This document shows positions 14,988-21,358 of a DNA stretch of 64,000 nt, piece after piece. The notes under the pieces are model-generated. The model was not told the origin of the DNA. It saw nothing but the letters and a program-made list of their open reading frames with translations, and did not search any database. Made by a program: the position numbers and the translations under genes. Each line of letters begins with the position of its first letter. Within the stretch, counting starts at the first letter, position 1. This DNA comes from Gammaproteobacteria bacterium. GTDB lineage: Bacteria > Pseudomonadota > Gammaproteobacteria > SZUA-152. The stretch is taken from positions 1-64,000 of the forward strand of contig JAKIUF010000016.1 of NCBI GenBank assembly GCA_021647705.1. The letters run 5' to 3'.

Positions 14988-15995
14988 CTATTTAGCGTGA
15001 CAGGTCAGGCATAGCCCACTGGGGCCACCGATACCATTGCTATTCGGTGTGCTGTTACTGATACGCAAGAAACTGGGGATAAACTCAGTGCCAGGACCGT
15101 TGGAAGGGATGCCGTGAGGATCATGACAGGAGGCACATTCCACAGCAGGGCCATTACCGCTGTCGTATAGGCGCACTTCATCTTTTTCAGCGAAGCGGTT
15201 ACCGTTGCTGTCAAAAAACGACCATTTGCCAGGAACAATTACTTCCGGCTCATTATAATCAATGCCTGGGCCAAAGGTGGTGGGATATGTTATCCCGACT
15301 ACATGGTCGTTGCGAAGGTTGGTGCCTAGTATGAAGGCGCTGAAGTCTGGTGCAAACGGAATGGGAAGACTGTCGCTATTGATGTTGTGACATATGCTGC
15401 AGCCTCCTCCAGTCCCCGTTCCCGGTTCTGGTCCTAATGCAAGGTGGTTGCCCGTAGGGCCCATGCCAGGATTGGAAATAACCCATCTGTTTAGAAAATC
15501 TTCATTTGGCGAGCCAACTTCTAAATTGCGTAGGTTGCTACCTGGAGCTAGGCCAGACCCAGGCATATTTAACACAGAGTCGATAGCGATGGTGCCATCA
15601 TGGCAGGACAAACAGGTTAACGAGCTCGGTCCCGGAAGATTCAAGCGGCCTTCCAGCCCTAATGTGGTGGGGGTGTCGTAGATACTGTAGTTATCCGCAT
15701 TATTGATTGTGCGGTTCCATAACGGGGCGTTGATTTGTGTGTTGGCTCCGTGAGGGGTGTGGCAATAAACACAGGTTTCTCCATAATTGTTACGGAAACT
15801 ATTCATCAGAAAGGCGTTGCTGCTGTTATTGTAGGACAAAGTGAGGTTATGACGGGTCTGCTCAATACTGCCGATGTTGGTTGCGCTAAATCGTGGGTCC
15901 CAGCCATCAGCAAATGCCACCCCTCCACTTCCAGTCATCCCTATCCCAAACAAGCTTATGCAAAGTATAATTTTCGGTGTTATTTTCAGTGACAT
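14988..15995 (-). CDS. Periplasmic pentahaem cytochrome c (paired CXXCH type)
   Basis: A 335-residue secreted protein with a signal peptide ending near GGVAFAD and five CXXCH sites in order: CVYCH, CLSCH, CSICH, CASCH and CLTCH. The last lies four residues from the end (CHAK). LRNDH after the third site may donate a distal histidine. The arrangement matches the doubled-CXXCH families of multihaem electron-transfer proteins. It is a diverged paralogue of the pentahaem protein at 17.3-18.1 kb, sharing CVYCH, CLSCHDGT-A-D, CHN, LRNDH and CHAK. Electron partner unknown. Confidence 0.85.
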   Translation of the reverse strand: MSLKITPKIILCISLFGIGMTGSGGVAFADGWDPRFSATNIGSIEQTRHNLTLSYNNSSNAFLMNSFRNNYGETCVYCHTPHGANTQINAPLWNRTINNADNYSIYDTPTTLGLEGRLNLPGPSSLTCLSCHDGTIAIDSVLNMPGSGLAPGSNLRNLEVGSPNEDFLNRWVISNPGMGPTGNHLALGPEPGTGTGGGCSICHNINSDSLPIPFAPDFSAFILGTNLRNDHVVGITYPTTFGPGIDYNEPEVIVPGKWSFFDSNGNRFAEKDEVRLYDSGNGPAVECASCHDPHGIPSNGPGTEFIPSFLRISNSTPNSNGIGGPSGLCLTCHAK

Positions 15996-16221: not shown

Positions 16222-17343
16222 TCATTTTTTGTCTTTTGGCAGGTGTTCTCCGCCCAGGTAGCCGCCATTCTTTGCGACGTTGGCAGGCCTGTAAATATCA
16301 ACTTTGCGAAAAAACTGATCAACAATGTAGACGCGACCATCTTCGTCCACTGCAATGCCAGCGGGCAGCATGTAGAGACCGGGTCCCTGTGTTTGGCTGC
16401 GTTGACCAACAAACATCAGTAATTGGCTTTTGTCATTGAATATCTGGAAGTTGCCAAAAGCGGCATCGACCACATAAATGTTGCCTTCGGGATCGGTTGC
16501 GATGCCCTTGGGGCGTGCAAAGTTCCCCAGTTTTCGTCCAACAGTGCCAAAGCTGAACTTGTGGGAGCCATCGGGATTAAAGGCCTGCACACGAAAATTG
16601 CCGCTGTCTGTTACGTAGATGGTGCCATCAGGGCCCGTGGTGACTTGCAAGGCCAGGTTAAATTCGCCGTCCTTGCGACCACGAGTGCCGATGGTTTTTT
16701 TCAGTTCGCCGGTCTTGGCGTCGAAAATATAGAGATGGTGCTCTTGCGTGGTGACGCCGCCGGTGTCAATGACGTAGGCTTGCAAGCCATCCGGGCTGAC
16801 GGCAACACCCGAAGGGCGTTTGAGAATACTGCGATCACCGAAGGCCCGTAGAAATTTTCCATCTTTGTCAAAAACGACAATACGTTTTGCTGTGTTGTCG
16901 GCGACATAAAGCTCCCCGTCTTTGCTGACGGCGATGCCGATGGGCTTGGCCAGCCTACCAGGGCCTTCGGTACCGATCATTTTGAAGTCTTTACCGGGTA
17001 CGTCAAACATCATCACGGCACGCTTGACGGTGTCGGTCACATAAACGCGCCCCTGGTAGACAGCAACACCATAGGGTTTGCCCAGGCCCGTGGCCTTGCC
17101 CAGTGTGCCGGTGGCGAAAATTTTAAGCTTGTCGACGCCGGTAATTTCTTTGACATCGTAGCTGCTGCGAAGGGTGCCCTCAAAATAAAAGCGTGCAGGC
17201 TCGGGAGCTGGCGGGTAGGCCAGAACAATTTCTTCCCGTTTTATTTTTTCTCCGCCGCAACCTGTCAGAAGAAGGGTGATGATGATCCCGAACCAGATCA
17301 GTCCATGATGTGTTTTTTTTATTTTGCGTGGCAAGTGAAACAT
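16222..17343 (-). CDS. NHL-repeat lipoprotein
   Basis: A 373-residue lipoprotein (lipobox LLLTGCG near residue 29). A short linker is followed by six NHL blades, such as KPYGVAVYQGRVYVTD, KPIGIAVSKDGELYVAD and RPKGIATDPEGNIYVVD. NHL propellers usually mediate protein contacts. The start overlaps the end of the pentahaem cytochrome gene by 25 bp, with GAGGTG as ribosome site, so the two are translationally coupled and probably act together at the membrane. Confidence 0.85.
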   Translation of the reverse strand: MFHLPRKIKKTHHGLIWFGIIITLLLTGCGGEKIKREEIVLAYPPAPEPARFYFEGTLRSSYDVKEITGVDKLKIFATGTLGKATGLGKPYGVAVYQGRVYVTDTVKRAVMMFDVPGKDFKMIGTEGPGRLAKPIGIAVSKDGELYVADNTAKRIVVFDKDGKFLRAFGDRSILKRPSGVAVSPDGLQAYVIDTGGVTTQEHHLYIFDAKTGELKKTIGTRGRKDGEFNLALQVTTGPDGTIYVTDSGNFRVQAFNPDGSHKFSFGTVGRKLGNFARPKGIATDPEGNIYVVDAAFGNFQIFNDKSQLLMFVGQRSQTQGPGLYMLPAGIAVDEDGRVYIVDQFFRKVDIYRPANVAKNGGYLGGEHLPKDKK

Positions 17344-18131
17344 AGCACCTCAGCATTAGCGCGTAGTAATAATTCCCGCGAGGGGTCGTGTACGTTGTGA
17401 CAAGTCATACATTCTACTTGTCCGTCGTATAGTTTAACACCATTAGCAAAGCCGTCAGGTGTATCGGGTGGACGAAAATCCGGGTCTTTGAATGCCAGTC
17501 CGGCATATCGCATGGAAATGGGATGGTCGTTGCGTAAATCGGTACCAAGCATTTTTACGGTGATGTCGTGGGCAATGTCTCCATTATGACATTTGCCACA
17601 GCTTTCGATGTCGTCGTCGGGACTGAGGCGCATATGCATGGCATCGTCTGCCGCTACATCAAATGTGGCTGGTTTGAAGACCACCATGTCTACTGCCATG
17701 GTGCCGTCGTGGCAGGACAGACAGAGCATACTGATGGGGTTGGGCCCGCTGGTTTTGCTGTCCATGTTAACGCTGTCGTATAGTTGGTAATTGCTCAGTG
17801 CGGGTACGTAGCGGTTCCAGCCGTCGATGCCGCCAAAATCTGCGGGAACAGCACCGGCTTCTTCTGGAGGAATGTGACAGTAAACGCAGGAGTAGCCATA
17901 GTCCGAAAAGGCAACGCCAGCCATGGCTACCACGCCAGCGCGTTCATTGAGACCGGTGAAATCATGTTTGGAACCCAGAATAGGGTCATCTGCGCCAAGC
18001 ACCGGGTCGCCGACAATGGCGGCAGCAGCGGTGTAGGTGGCCCACGACAATCCGCTAACCAGCAGAGTGAAGATCAGGAAAATAGTGCCAGCTTTTGTTT
18101 TGGATCGCCATTTTTTTATTTGTCGCGACAT
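17319..18131 (-). CDS. Periplasmic pentahaem cytochrome c (paired CXXCH type)
   Basis: A 270-residue secreted cytochrome with an N-terminal basic/hydrophobic signal segment and five haem sites: CVYCH, CLSCH, CGKCH, CMTCH and CFTCH, ending CHAK as the last four residues. LGTDLRNDHPISM supplies candidate axial histidine. It is a shorter paralogue of the cytochrome at 15 kb. It heads a minus-strand unit with the NHL lipoprotein and is divergent from the triheme cytochrome at 18.5 kb across a palindrome-rich region. Confidence 0.86.
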   Translation of the reverse strand: MSRQIKKWRSKTKAGTIFLIFTLLVSGLSWATYTAAAAIVGDPVLGADDPILGSKHDFTGLNERAGVVAMAGVAFSDYGYSCVYCHIPPEEAGAVPADFGGIDGWNRYVPALSNYQLYDSVNMDSKTSGPNPISMLCLSCHDGTMAVDMVVFKPATFDVAADDAMHMRLSPDDDIESCGKCHNGDIAHDITVKMLGTDLRNDHPISMRYAGLAFKDPDFRPPDTPDGFANGVKLYDGQVECMTCHNVHDPSRELLLRANAEVLCFTCHAK

Positions 18132-18339: not shown

Positions 18340-18488
18340 TATATAATACCGTGCGATCCGGGGGTGTGTTGTCGGGTATTATTGGTGAGCGCGCTGCAAC
18401 TTGTTGAGTGATTAGGGGTTTTTGATAAGTTAATGCGGTAGGCGGTTTCAGGAAATAACTTTGGAAAAATTGAGAGGCGTCCTGGTTT

Positions 18489-19694
18489 ATGAAAAACAGT
18501 GTGATGTGGGTAAGGTTGGTGGGGATAGCCGGTGTGGTGTCACTTGGGTTGGGTGCGGCGAGCGCTGTTGCAGTAACGGCTAATAGTGGGTCAGCGGCGG
18601 ATAAAAAAGATATCGCTGCTTTGTACCTGAAAAATTGCTCCATTTGTCATGGTGATGAGGGTGATGCAAACACTCGTGCCCAGTCTGGCATGTACCCTGT
18701 ACCTCGTGATTTTACAACGGCTGAGGCGGCTATTGAGCTGACTCGTGAGCGTATGATTCAAGCGGTCACCGATGGTCGTCCTGGTACCACTATGGTGGCC
18801 CATAAAAAAAGGTTAAGTGAGCAGGAAATAGCTGATTTGGTTGATTATATCCGCAGCAATTTTATGCAGCTTCCAGAGGCCGCAGCCGGGACACCTGCGG
18901 CGGTGAATCTGGGCGAAAAAGTTTATACTGAAAATTGTTCAGTATGTCATGGGGACAATGGCAACACGGCTCTTTGGGCTCAAAATGGCCTTAATCCGGC
19001 TCCTCGGGATTTTACTTCACCTGAGGCGCTGAATGAGCTGACTCGTGATCGTATGTTGCGTTCGATTACCAATGGTCGTCCTGGTACCGGCATGGTCTCG
19101 TACAAAAAACGCTTATCGAAAGATGAAATTGCTGCGGTTGTTGATTTTATCCGCTTCAAGTTTATGGGCGTTGACCCGGATAAAGATACTGGTGCCTCCC
19201 CGTTGGTTATTGGCATTCCAGGAGTGGATGCCCCCCTTGCTTCGGTGCCGCCGACGCCAACGAGAGCTGATCCACATCAGCAACCACATAGCGCATCGGC
19301 ACCTGCGGTTGTGTCTGCCCCGTCGACTGCGAGCCACGATGTCGATATGTCCCTGCCTATACCCAAGGGGTTGAAGGGTGACCTAGTCTGGGGACGCCAA
19401 TTTTATATGGCTAATTGCCTCGATTGTCATGGTGTGACGGGTGAAGGCGATGGTCCGCGTGCTTATTTCAATATTCCCCGACCGCGTGATTTCACTAGCG
19501 AGGCTTCGCGGCAGGTGTTTAATCGACCCCGTATTTTTAGCGGTATTACTGCTGGCAAGCTGGGTACGGTGATGCCTGCCTGGGGCAAGGTGCTGACTGA
19601 ACAGGAAATTGCCGGTCTGACTGAGTTTGTGTTCCAGACGTTCATTCAGCCTGCTGAAACGGGTGACAGCGCGGGCAAAAAAAAAGCCCCGTAA
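18489..19694 (+). CDS. Triheme cytochrome c, N-terminal part of a likely hexahaem protein
   Basis: A 401-residue secreted protein with a signal peptide (about residues 8-30) and three cytochrome c domains. Haem sites are CSICHG (50-54), CSVCHG (150-154) and CLDCHG (310-314). Each domain has PRDFT, (G)RPGT-MV and a terminal VDFIR helix. The frame ends GKKKAP-stop immediately after a run of nine A (19677-19685). In the -1 frame the reading continues through a Pro/Ala/Gln linker into three more related domains up to 20680, so this may be the short product of a slippage-controlled gene. Confidence 0.85.
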   Translation: MKNSVMWVRLVGIAGVVSLGLGAASAVAVTANSGSAADKKDIAALYLKNCSICHGDEGDANTRAQSGMYPVPRDFTTAEAAIELTRERMIQAVTDGRPGTTMVAHKKRLSEQEIADLVDYIRSNFMQLPEAAAGTPAAVNLGEKVYTENCSVCHGDNGNTALWAQNGLNPAPRDFTSPEALNELTRDRMLRSITNGRPGTGMVSYKKRLSKDEIAAVVDFIRFKFMGVDPDKDTGASPLVIGIPGVDAPLASVPPTPTRADPHQQPHSASAPAVVSAPSTASHDVDMSLPIPKGLKGDLVWGRQFYMANCLDCHGVTGEGDGPRAYFNIPRPRDFTSEASRQVFNRPRIFSGITAGKLGTVMPAWGKVLTEQEIAGLTEFVFQTFIQPAETGDSAGKKKAP

Positions 19695-20680
19695 CAGGCC
19701 AATTACCAGCGGCGAATAGCACGCCGATAGCACAGAAAGCAGGACTCGACCCTGTTCATGGTGATCGTCATGAACAGGGTCGGGCTATTTACAACTTCCG
19801 TTGTTATTTTTGTCATGGTTACTCTGGTGATGCCAAAACCTTGGCAGCCAGTTATCTGACACCGCGTCCGCGCGATTTTATTGCCACCGAGCTTGATGAC
19901 ATTAGTTACGAAGCCATGATCAATGCCGTGACCCACGGTCGTCCTGATACCGCTATGCTGGGTTTTGTCAACACCATCAGTCGTGAAGATATTGCGCTGG
20001 TGGTGGATTTTGTCCGTCGCGAGTTCATGCAGAACAAGGATCGTAATACGGCGTATCATACCGTGGAGAACGGTTGGCCGAACCACCAGCAGTATGCGTT
20101 GGCCTTCCCTTTTGCGCTGGAGGAAATCGCGCTTGATACACCTTCTGAGCAGCTCAGCTCACAACAACGGATAGGGCGGCGCATTTTCATGCAAAGTTGT
20201 GTCACCTGCCATGATCGTGCTCGGGTTAATGATGAGGGGGTGATCTGGGATCCGCGTCCGGTGTCGTATCCTCGCAACCAGTACTCGCATCGCCAGACCG
20301 AAACCACGCCTCCTGATAGCATCAGCAGCGCCACTCCTTATGCGCGTCATGAGCAGGCACCGGTATTGGTTAATCTCACTGCGCAGGAAAAAGAGGGTGA
20401 AGCCTTATTTCAGGAAAACTGCGCTTTTTGTCACGCTCCGGATGGTACGGGCAAGAATTGGATTGGCAGTTTTCTTGAGCCACATCCGAGAGACCTCACT
20501 GATCCGGTAAATATGCAGACAATGACTGCGGAACGTCTGCGTCAGGTGATTCGTGACGGTTTGCCGGATACCACCATGTCGGCTTGGAAGGGTGTGCTGG
20601 ACGCAGGGCAAATTGACGCTGTGATTGCTTATATTAATCGGGCCTTTCATCCGCTAGCCAAGGCAGCTCCGGCAGATTAA
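19667..20680 (+). CDS. Triheme cytochrome c region lacking its own start
   Basis: This open frame carries CYFCHG (from 19802), CVTCHD (from 20198) and CAFCHA (from 20420), with the same PRDF, GRPDTAM and VDFVRREFM pattern as the gene before it. No ATG, GTG or TTG occurs between the frame's upstream limit (about 19667) and the first haem motif; the first possible start, TTG 19841, lies after it and would leave no signal peptide. It is best explained as the C-terminal half of one hexahaem protein (about 730 residues) made by -1 slippage at the A9 run, or as a disrupted or missequenced gene. Confidence 0.75.
   Translation, partial: QRGQKKSPVTGQLPAANSTPIAQKAGLDPVHGDRHEQGRAIYNFRCYFCHGYSGDAKTLAASYLTPRPRDFIATELDDISYEAMINAVTHGRPDTAMLGFVNTISREDIALVVDFVRREFMQNKDRNTAYHTVENGWPNHQQYALAFPFALEEIALDTPSEQLSSQQRIGRRIFMQSCVTCHDRARVNDEGVIWDPRPVSYPRNQYSHRQTETTPPDSISSATPYARHEQAPVLVNLTAQEKEGEALFQENCAFCHAPDGTGKNWIGSFLEPHPRDLTDPVNMQTMTAERLRQVIRDGLPDTTMSAWKGVLDAGQIDAVIAYINRAFHPLAKAAPAD
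19747..19782 (+). promoter_or_regulatory. Strong hairpin inside the hexahaem cytochrome reading frame
   Basis: CGACCCTGTTCATG (19747-19760) and CATGAACAGGGTCG (19769-19782) form a perfect 14-bp stem with an eight-base loop, 62 nt after the A9 run. It lies within the downstream coding frame (DPVHGDRHEQGR). It could affect slippage or mRNA processing. Its distance is longer than the usual 5-9 nt for frameshift stimulators. Confidence 0.5.
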
Positions 20681-20905: not shown

Positions 20906-21358
20906 ATGTTTATACATATCGCCAAATGGCCAATGTTGCTCGCAGTGCTGGTGTTAATTATGGGGGGAACCCAGTCAGTTTTTGCGTCAGACAAGCCGTT
21001 CGCTGAAAAAAAGATTGTTTTGCAGATATCTGACTCCGATCCTTTCAAACAAACACTTGTGCTAAATGTGGCCAATAATCTGATCAAGGAATATGGCATC
21101 GATGGCGTGGAGATCGAGATTGTTGCCTTCGGCCCTGGGTTGCGTTTGTTGTTTGCTGACAATGCCAACAAAGGTCGTATTCAGGGTCTGGATGCCAATG
21201 GTGTTGAGTTTAGGGGGTGTAGTAATACCCAAAAAAGTATGGCTAAGAAACTGGGTTATGTTCCGAAGATGAATCCAGTTGCTTTGGTTGAAGGCCCGGG
21301 CGTGGTGCGTATCGTCAAGCTGGTGACGGAAGAGGGTTATACCCTGGTCAAGCCTTAA
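20906..21358 (+). CDS. Periplasmic DsrE/F-like protein
   Basis: A 150-residue protein with a signal peptide (cleavage near VFASDK) and an alpha/beta domain of the DsrE/DsrF superfamily. The hydrophobic strand IVLQISDSDPFKQTLVLNVA, the GVEIEIVAFGPGL strand and a single cysteine in FRGCSNT near residue 109 are typical. Family members relay sulfur or bind small thiols, but this exported subgroup has no settled function. ATG 20906 is chosen for its GGAGG site. It lies 225 bp after the hexahaem cytochrome frame, possibly in the same transcript. Confidence 0.75.
   Translation: MFIHIAKWPMLLAVLVLIMGGTQSVFASDKPFAEKKIVLQISDSDPFKQTLVLNVANNLIKEYGIDGVEIEIVAFGPGLRLLFADNANKGRIQGLDANGVEFRGCSNTQKSMAKKLGYVPKMNPVALVEGPGVVRIVKLVTEEGYTLVKP

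Follow-up and report, generated by a model that had tools for sequence, protein, structure and literature searches.

An A-run junction conserved between two cytochrome reading frames in Gammaproteobacteria, a probable case of programmed recoding

The best-known cases of slippage recoding concern mobile elements, dnaX, a chelatase and some virulence genes. The recoding proposed here sits in a chromosomal multihaem cytochrome gene, at 77 loci spread over 13 coded families and one record that has no family code. The cytochrome gene resembles dnaX of Thermus thermophilus, where the slippage is transcriptional, in the nine A of its sense strand and, if the slip takes place as proposed, in its two products of different length (PMC1088944). 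Among dnaX orthologues, transcriptional slippage operates in some species and ribosomal frameshifting in others (PMC3711429, section 10). According to a rule given in the same section, a gene family with a single shift direction counts as ribosomal. Regarding run length, selection against A/T runs appears at length nine in a large share of genomes (PMC1088944), and chelatase cassettes carrying 11, 9 and 7 A gave 63%, 40% and 10% frameshifting in E. coli (PMC3711429, section 24); transcription and translation are not told apart in that section. Slippage at spa13 amounts to 25-30% (PMC5009743). Finally, with stimulators present, G_GG.A_AA.G is listed as one of the three -1 heptamers that work most efficiently in E. 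coli (PMC4066793).

The two reading frames and their junction

The window, i.e., the whole 64-kb stretch of DNA that was analysed, contains a frame with three CXXCH codons (18636, 18936 and 19416), which reads through nine A as AAA AAA AAA G, the run being read directly in the sequence, and ends at GKKKAP-stop (Table 1). After the run the -1 frame reads KKSPVTGQLPAANSTPIAQKAG..., continues into a linker and encodes three further haem motifs (CYFCH at 19802, CVTCH at 20198 and CAFCH at 20420). The original prediction that an A9 run ends a triheme frame at GKKKAP, and that the -1 frame encodes three more haem motifs, was therefore upheld. In the Pfam search, Cytochrome_CBB3 matched three stretches of the first half and two of the second, with Cytochrom_C also matching both. 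Membership of the multihaem c-type cytochromes rests on the CXXCH motifs and these domains, while haem attachment and redox activity are inferred. No NCBIfam model reached its cut-off with either half, the best being ccoP (84.2 and 60.1 bits against 179.95), and among solved structures the closest to the second half was a CcoP chain matching one domain only (E 6e-10), so that the role is stated merely as electron transfer in the cell envelope. No oxidase genes were noticed beside the cytochrome gene among the open reading frames listed. Export of the first-frame product is inferred from sequence alone, the signal peptide having been judged from the N-terminal sequence with no predictor run.

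Table 1. Coordinates of the cytochrome locus, its proposed slip site and its neighbours in the window.
Feature	Position	Strand	Remarks
First frame, putative triheme c-type cytochrome	18489..19694	+	ATG start, 401 aa, stop TAA 19692-19694
A9 run, proposed slip site	19677..19685	+	A9 or A10 in 70/77 slip loci, including L101, which has GGGAAAG too
Second half, -1 frame	19685..20680	+	331 aa, three CXXCH, stop at 20680
Linker, run to first haem motif of second half	19686..19801	+	length and sequence vary among orthologues; run-to-haem-codon distance 53-197 nt among the 71 A-run loci
Hairpin	19747..19782	+	15 pairs drawn, 6-nt loop; just upstream of haem codon; role unknown
Divergent neighbour, five-CXXCH cytochrome	17319..18131	-	similar gene by eye in G263, G298 and G016
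NHL-repeat lipoprotein-like neighbour	16222..17343	-	similar gene by eye in G263, G298, G016 and G213

In G213, the lipoprotein-like gene alone was noticed of the two neighbour types. A further five-CXXCH protein is encoded on the minus strand at 14988-15995, and G016 has a similar gene in the same place. Directly 3' of the cytochrome gene, the plus strand encodes a small exported-looking protein (20915-21358), for which searches of Pfam and NCBIfam gave no match.

With the first frame as query, 37 of 40 relatives searched gave a match at E 0.001, many of them to other cytochromes, and 20 loci were taken from 20 genomes of the coded family to which the window belongs (f1). All 20 have, where the first frame ends, a run of exactly nine A followed by G, and the second half lay in the -1 frame in all 19 where the sequence covers it; it was detected in 22 of the 24 genomes of this family. 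An order-level search of the lineage of the window brought up these 24 genomes again. One contig scan gave 17 named-relative loci, all from metagenome assemblies and labelled Gammaproteobacteria or groups such as Nitrosomonadales, Chromatiales and Thiotrichaceae. A class-wide draw contained the second half in 38 of 369 genomes, three orders in 19/20, 11/13 and 10/11 genomes, and a phylum-wide draw in 24 of 398. Loci with the halves in different frames and a slip site between them were counted as slip loci, 77 in number after removal of duplicates, among them one without a family code (L050). Fourteen contig-scan loci repeating whole-genome loci were left out, as were L007, whose sequence ends soon after its A9 with the second half unseen, and four loci cut before the junction (L092, L168, L169 and L203); L058 and L059 are separate genes and fall outside the count. 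In genome G001, L007 and L030 are two different copies or variants. Genome G005 carries two A9 loci, L043 (G005:C223) beside L005 (G005:C209), and since L043 groups with another coded genus of the family, it may have been transferred or the genome bin may be mixed.

At every one of the 77 loci, the second half is read in -1 relative to the first. The junction consists of A9 alone in 63, A10 in six, A9 with GGGAAAG in one, A8 with GGGAAAG in one and GGGAAAG alone in six. At the 71 A-run loci, the run lies in codon phase 0, 1 or 2 in 57, 10 and 4 cases, respectively, is followed by G in 58 and C in 13, and has the zero-frame stop 9 nt past it in 37. Phase, next base, stop position and linker thus vary while run length is kept, i.e., the flanking sequence drifts and the run does not. 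An A9 is unremarkable on its own, as the window has one and its shuffles average 2.37, and the genome of the window holds 48 runs of at least nine A on either strand in 4.44 Mb (overlapping windows merged, three pairs). Its retention at the frame junction is far beyond chance, given that a run of 8-10 A is found there in 71 of the 77 orthologous slip loci. In the genes of 65 slip loci, comprising 148,822 sense bases, all 58 A runs of nine or ten lie at the junction and no other run of nine or more was found; runs of eight occur four times elsewhere and once at a junction. Codon preference does not account for the run, since lysine is encoded by AAA 443 times and by AAG 514 times in the same genes. 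Three plus three CXXCH motifs are present in 58 of these 65 loci; five of the remaining seven are cut by the sequence end, and L086 and L088 have two plus three.

The original prediction had asked whether the run and the split are conserved in orthologues, which they are, clearly in favour of a slip. It had also held that a count of A8 or A10 would open a single frame, and this was confirmed only in part: among single-base changes A10 alone does so, and A8 would not join the frames, because in all 71 A-run loci the +1 frame meets a stop within 29 codons. The 47 other runs of at least nine A in the genome of the window were scanned for joined frames as well. A single one passed the length filter (L151, G000:C72, T run 18356-18364), but its translations do not resemble those of a real gene, and it probably is not one.

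Selection, export and relatives of the second half

Both halves are under strong purifying selection. The first half gave dN/dS values of 0.08-0.23 and the second half values of 0.03-0.24, each computable in nine of ten locus pairs. These values are far below 1, as compared to 1.2-4.5 for the second-half DNA read in the wrong frames, and it follows that both halves behave as working proteins.

These results bear on two rival explanations. The first is a sequencing or assembly error, or a decaying pseudogene. Homopolymers are error-prone and the 17 named records are metagenome assemblies; however, the identical frame break recurs in 77 loci of 13 coded families, including G263 with two contigs, and decay is opposed by the dN/dS of both halves. 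The second is a phase-variable contingency locus, in which run length in the DNA would toggle the six-haem form. A homopolymer within a gene for an exported protein would suit such a locus, yet none of the 71 A-run loci is in the joined phase, and at the A10 loci the codon phase is shifted along with the run, leaving the frames apart. Owing to the conserved run, the selection and the existence of separate-gene and in-frame fused relatives, we consider error, decay and phase variation all very unlikely, and the indel or sequencing error that had originally been named as the rival can be largely set aside given conservation and selection.

The second half poses a problem of export. In its frame, as read from the sequence, no ATG, GTG or TTG is found upstream of the first haem codon in the window, and the first mechanical start in the ORF listing is a TTG at 19841, downstream of that codon. 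The claim that the second frame has neither a start before its first haem motif nor a signal peptide was thus borne out. Of the 77 slip loci, 49 lack any start codon 15 or more residues ahead of the first haem in the second half (40/65 in the first set and 9/12 in the later set). In the remaining 28, hydropathy over 12 residues peaks at no more than 1.28 in the best start-led N-terminus, as compared to 1.86 or more in 31 separately encoded second halves (8 + 23 loci), and the two ranges do not overlap; this is a plain hydropathy value rather than the output of a signal-peptide predictor. The c-type cytochromes acquire their haem after export. At slip loci the second half, lacking a signal peptide, should therefore turn into a cytochrome only as part of the joined product.

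Separate translation of the second half by re-initiation or coupling, with no slip, is another explanation to be considered. In its support, the second half is a gene of its own in more distant relatives, where it often overlaps the first, and those 28 slip loci do have some start at least 15 residues before the haem. Against it stand the 49 loci without such a start, the low hydropathy of the other 28 as compared to the separate genes, and the absence of any start before the first haem in the window. Besides, an unexported product is not expected to receive haem. We thus regard separate translation as very unlikely.

Relatives with a different gene arrangement were also identified. The second half is a separate gene in L058 (GTG start, GTGA overlap) and L059 (ATGA overlap, lipoprotein-like), as well as in L074, L077, L083, L090, L093, L095 and L173-L195, and in more distant relatives it is a gene of its own with a signal-peptide-like start. 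L166 and L167, sister loci from two genomes of one coded genus, each consist of a single gene with six CXXCH motifs in one frame; in the tree, the row closest to them is that of the A9 locus L078. In G213 the fused gene encodes 637 residues with five Cytochrome_CBB3 stretches, and we take it as a natural example of the proposed six-haem product. In 13 of the phylum-level relatives the second half is read in -1 relative to the first gene, and in 12 of these the two overlap; the longest A run in the 12 overlaps is five, and GGGAAAG is absent. In a tree of 87 second halves, the slip loci are nested within a separately exported background, and the states separate, slip and fused require at least seven changes. 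This was a quick tree, drawn from outgroup rows with separate genes after near-copies and short rows had been thinned, and it places one outgroup row on the wrong side; many deep branches are weak, and thus the number of A-run origins remains unsettled. Orthologues arranged as two genes, each with its own signal peptide, had been named in advance as a refutation. They do occur, in outgroups and a few lineages, and no A run was found in those two-gene lineages. We infer that they represent the ancestral or a re-separated state.

Slippage or frameshifting at the junction

What has been shown is the sequence, its conservation, the frame relation, the selection, the missing start and signal peptide, and the fused and separate relatives. 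That slipping occurs in cells, its rate, the machine responsible and the existence of both products are inferred. A programmed slip, ribosomal or transcriptional, yielding a triheme and a hexahaem form had been predicted, and the comparison supports it without showing the slipping itself. Programmed recoding of either kind is very likely on comparative sequence evidence, in the absence of RNA or protein data. At the A run, we favour transcriptional slippage as the likely mechanism, again inferred without RNA data. RNA polymerase would slip on A9 during transcription, giving a share of transcripts with A10 (or A10+3n). Unslipped transcripts would yield the exported triheme cytochrome, with the stop two codons past the run, and those with one extra A would be read on in the -1 frame into an exported six-haem cytochrome. 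Without a signal peptide of its own, the second half would get to the periplasm and acquire haem only if joined to the first.

The preference for transcription is based on what has been conserved, namely a run length near the slippage threshold and not the codon phase, the next base or nearby RNA structure. The run has nine or ten A and never seven, and eight only beside GGGAAAG. Three codon phases and two next bases (G and C) occur, as expected of a slip that depends on neither phase nor next base; the predominance of phase 0 and of G as the next base counts against transcription. Shifts in both directions were not found among the orthologues (77/77 are -1), and the section 10 rule of PMC3711429 would therefore class this cytochrome family as ribosomal.

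Programmed -1 ribosomal frameshifting on A_AAA_AAA within the run, which would give the same products from a homogeneous mRNA, is indeed the serious rival, even though we consider it unlikely. In its favour, A_AAA_AAA, which is known as a ribosomal slip heptamer although a weaker one, is in phase at 65 of 71 loci (A_AAA_AAC at four and A_AAA_AAG at two), the single shift direction fits the rule mentioned above, and RNA structure is present 10-110 nt downstream of the run. However, seven bases would suffice for the ribosome and the runs have nine or ten, the efficient A_AAA_AAG is in phase at only two of the 71 loci, the next base is C in 13, and the structure is aligned with the haem codon rather than with the run. 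Specifically, the region 10-110 nt past the run shows a structure excess (mean z -1.47, 15/58 below z -2), as compared to a mean z between -0.42 and +0.12 in ten windows away from the junction. No excess was detected in the first 45 nt past the run (mean z -0.24, 0/58 below z -2), and 7/58 fell below z -2 at 10-55 nt. When windows were aligned to each of the two, the structure followed the haem codon and not the run, at a similar place in many orthologues.

The hairpin of the window was considered as a ribosomal stimulator after a promising early profile, but it was rejected in this role as the structure adjoins the haem codon and not the run. Its covariation among five close relatives is modest, the score being reached by 8 of 500 shuffles and the both-sided changes by 36 of 500. 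A Shine-Dalgarno (SD)-like motif within 25 nt upstream was found at 16 of 59 A sites, with no control run.

A different junction was found in one clade. Six loci of coded family f71, genus g76, have no A run and carry an in-phase G_GGA_AAG, a heptamer in phase at eight loci in total. In the sister clade, L102 has A9, L101 has A9 and G_GGA_AAG, and L098 has A8 and G_GGA_AAG followed directly by TAG. The six loci with the heptamer only form one group of modest support (84/76) in a separate, earlier tree of 72 rows. Past the heptamer, constraint in these six falls on the -1 frame, with a pN/pS of 0.50 vs 1.34 in the zero frame; before it the values are 0.63 and 0.77, and the frames are not clearly different. 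In the 60 nt downstream of the GGGAAAG sites no structure stands out (mean z -0.16, 1/8 below -2). From the sequence, -1 ribosomal frameshifting is inferred as the likely mechanism at the G_GGA_AAG loci. The simplest inferred reading has A9 as the starting state, a double site as the intermediate and G_GGA_AAG without a run as the end point.

An SD-like GGAG lies upstream of GGGAAAG in seven of the eight loci scanned (L084, L085, L098, L101, L103, L104, L106 and L110), at 14 nt in six and at 11 nt in L103, which has GGAGG; it is absent from L110. Given that these loci are closely related and that a control is lacking, a stimulatory role for the GGAG is a possibility only.

Comparison with known systems

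No report of this cytochrome gene was found in the literature searched, although an unnamed cluster in supplementary tables is not excluded. The word 'cytochrome' is absent from the main text of PMC3711429 and PMC1088944, and in PMC5009743 it appears in three places, all concerning mitochondrial genes. The mechanism is of a known kind, in a gene family without a published case in the literature searched. Two further features can be inferred, i.e., the slip does the work of a signal peptide, and the slip site has been exchanged in one clade. The six-haem protein is probably missing from protein databases, as a gene finder sees two pieces.

A bolder reading may also be proposed. Regarding history, two triheme cytochromes that were each exported separately would have merged in Gammaproteobacteria via a slip in expression and not by gene fusion. 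Regarding export, the same slip would have taken over the role of a lost signal peptide. It may then have been kept through much of the diversification of the class, holding the ratio of triheme to six-haem form. In one clade, finally, ribosomal G_GGA_AAG would have replaced transcriptional slippage, with A9+GGGAAAG and A8+GGGAAAG-TAG as intermediates that still exist. For all four parts to hold jointly, we see the balance tipping only slightly in favour. The G_GGA_AAG clade allows one to ask whether evolution preserves the product ratio or the slipping machine.

With respect to protein type, both halves resemble CcoP and class I cytochromes c in their Cytochrome_CBB3 and Cytochrom_C domains and in having ccoP as best NCBIfam match, but they differ from CcoP in the six haems expected when joined and in a ccoP score under the cut-off. 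As to the slip, Shigella spa13/mxiE and the orfA/orfB pairs of IS elements are similar in that the slip adds a C-terminal extension; those are virulence or mobile genes, whereas the cytochrome gene is chromosomal and spread over 13 coded families. The magnesium chelatase gene chlD shares with the cytochrome gene a -1 slip on poly-A, annotation as two adjacent genes and fused homologues elsewhere. Unlike the product proposed here, the chelatase is not an exported cytochrome, and in that case two subunits arise from one gene by an event called translational (PMC9227772). The dnaX gene is a different gene with a different function, and its slip in Thermus leads to the shorter product, whereas the cytochrome slip would lead to a longer product and to export of the half that has no signal of its own. 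The difference in mechanism among dnaX species nevertheless serves as precedent for the exchange of slip site in the cytochrome family.
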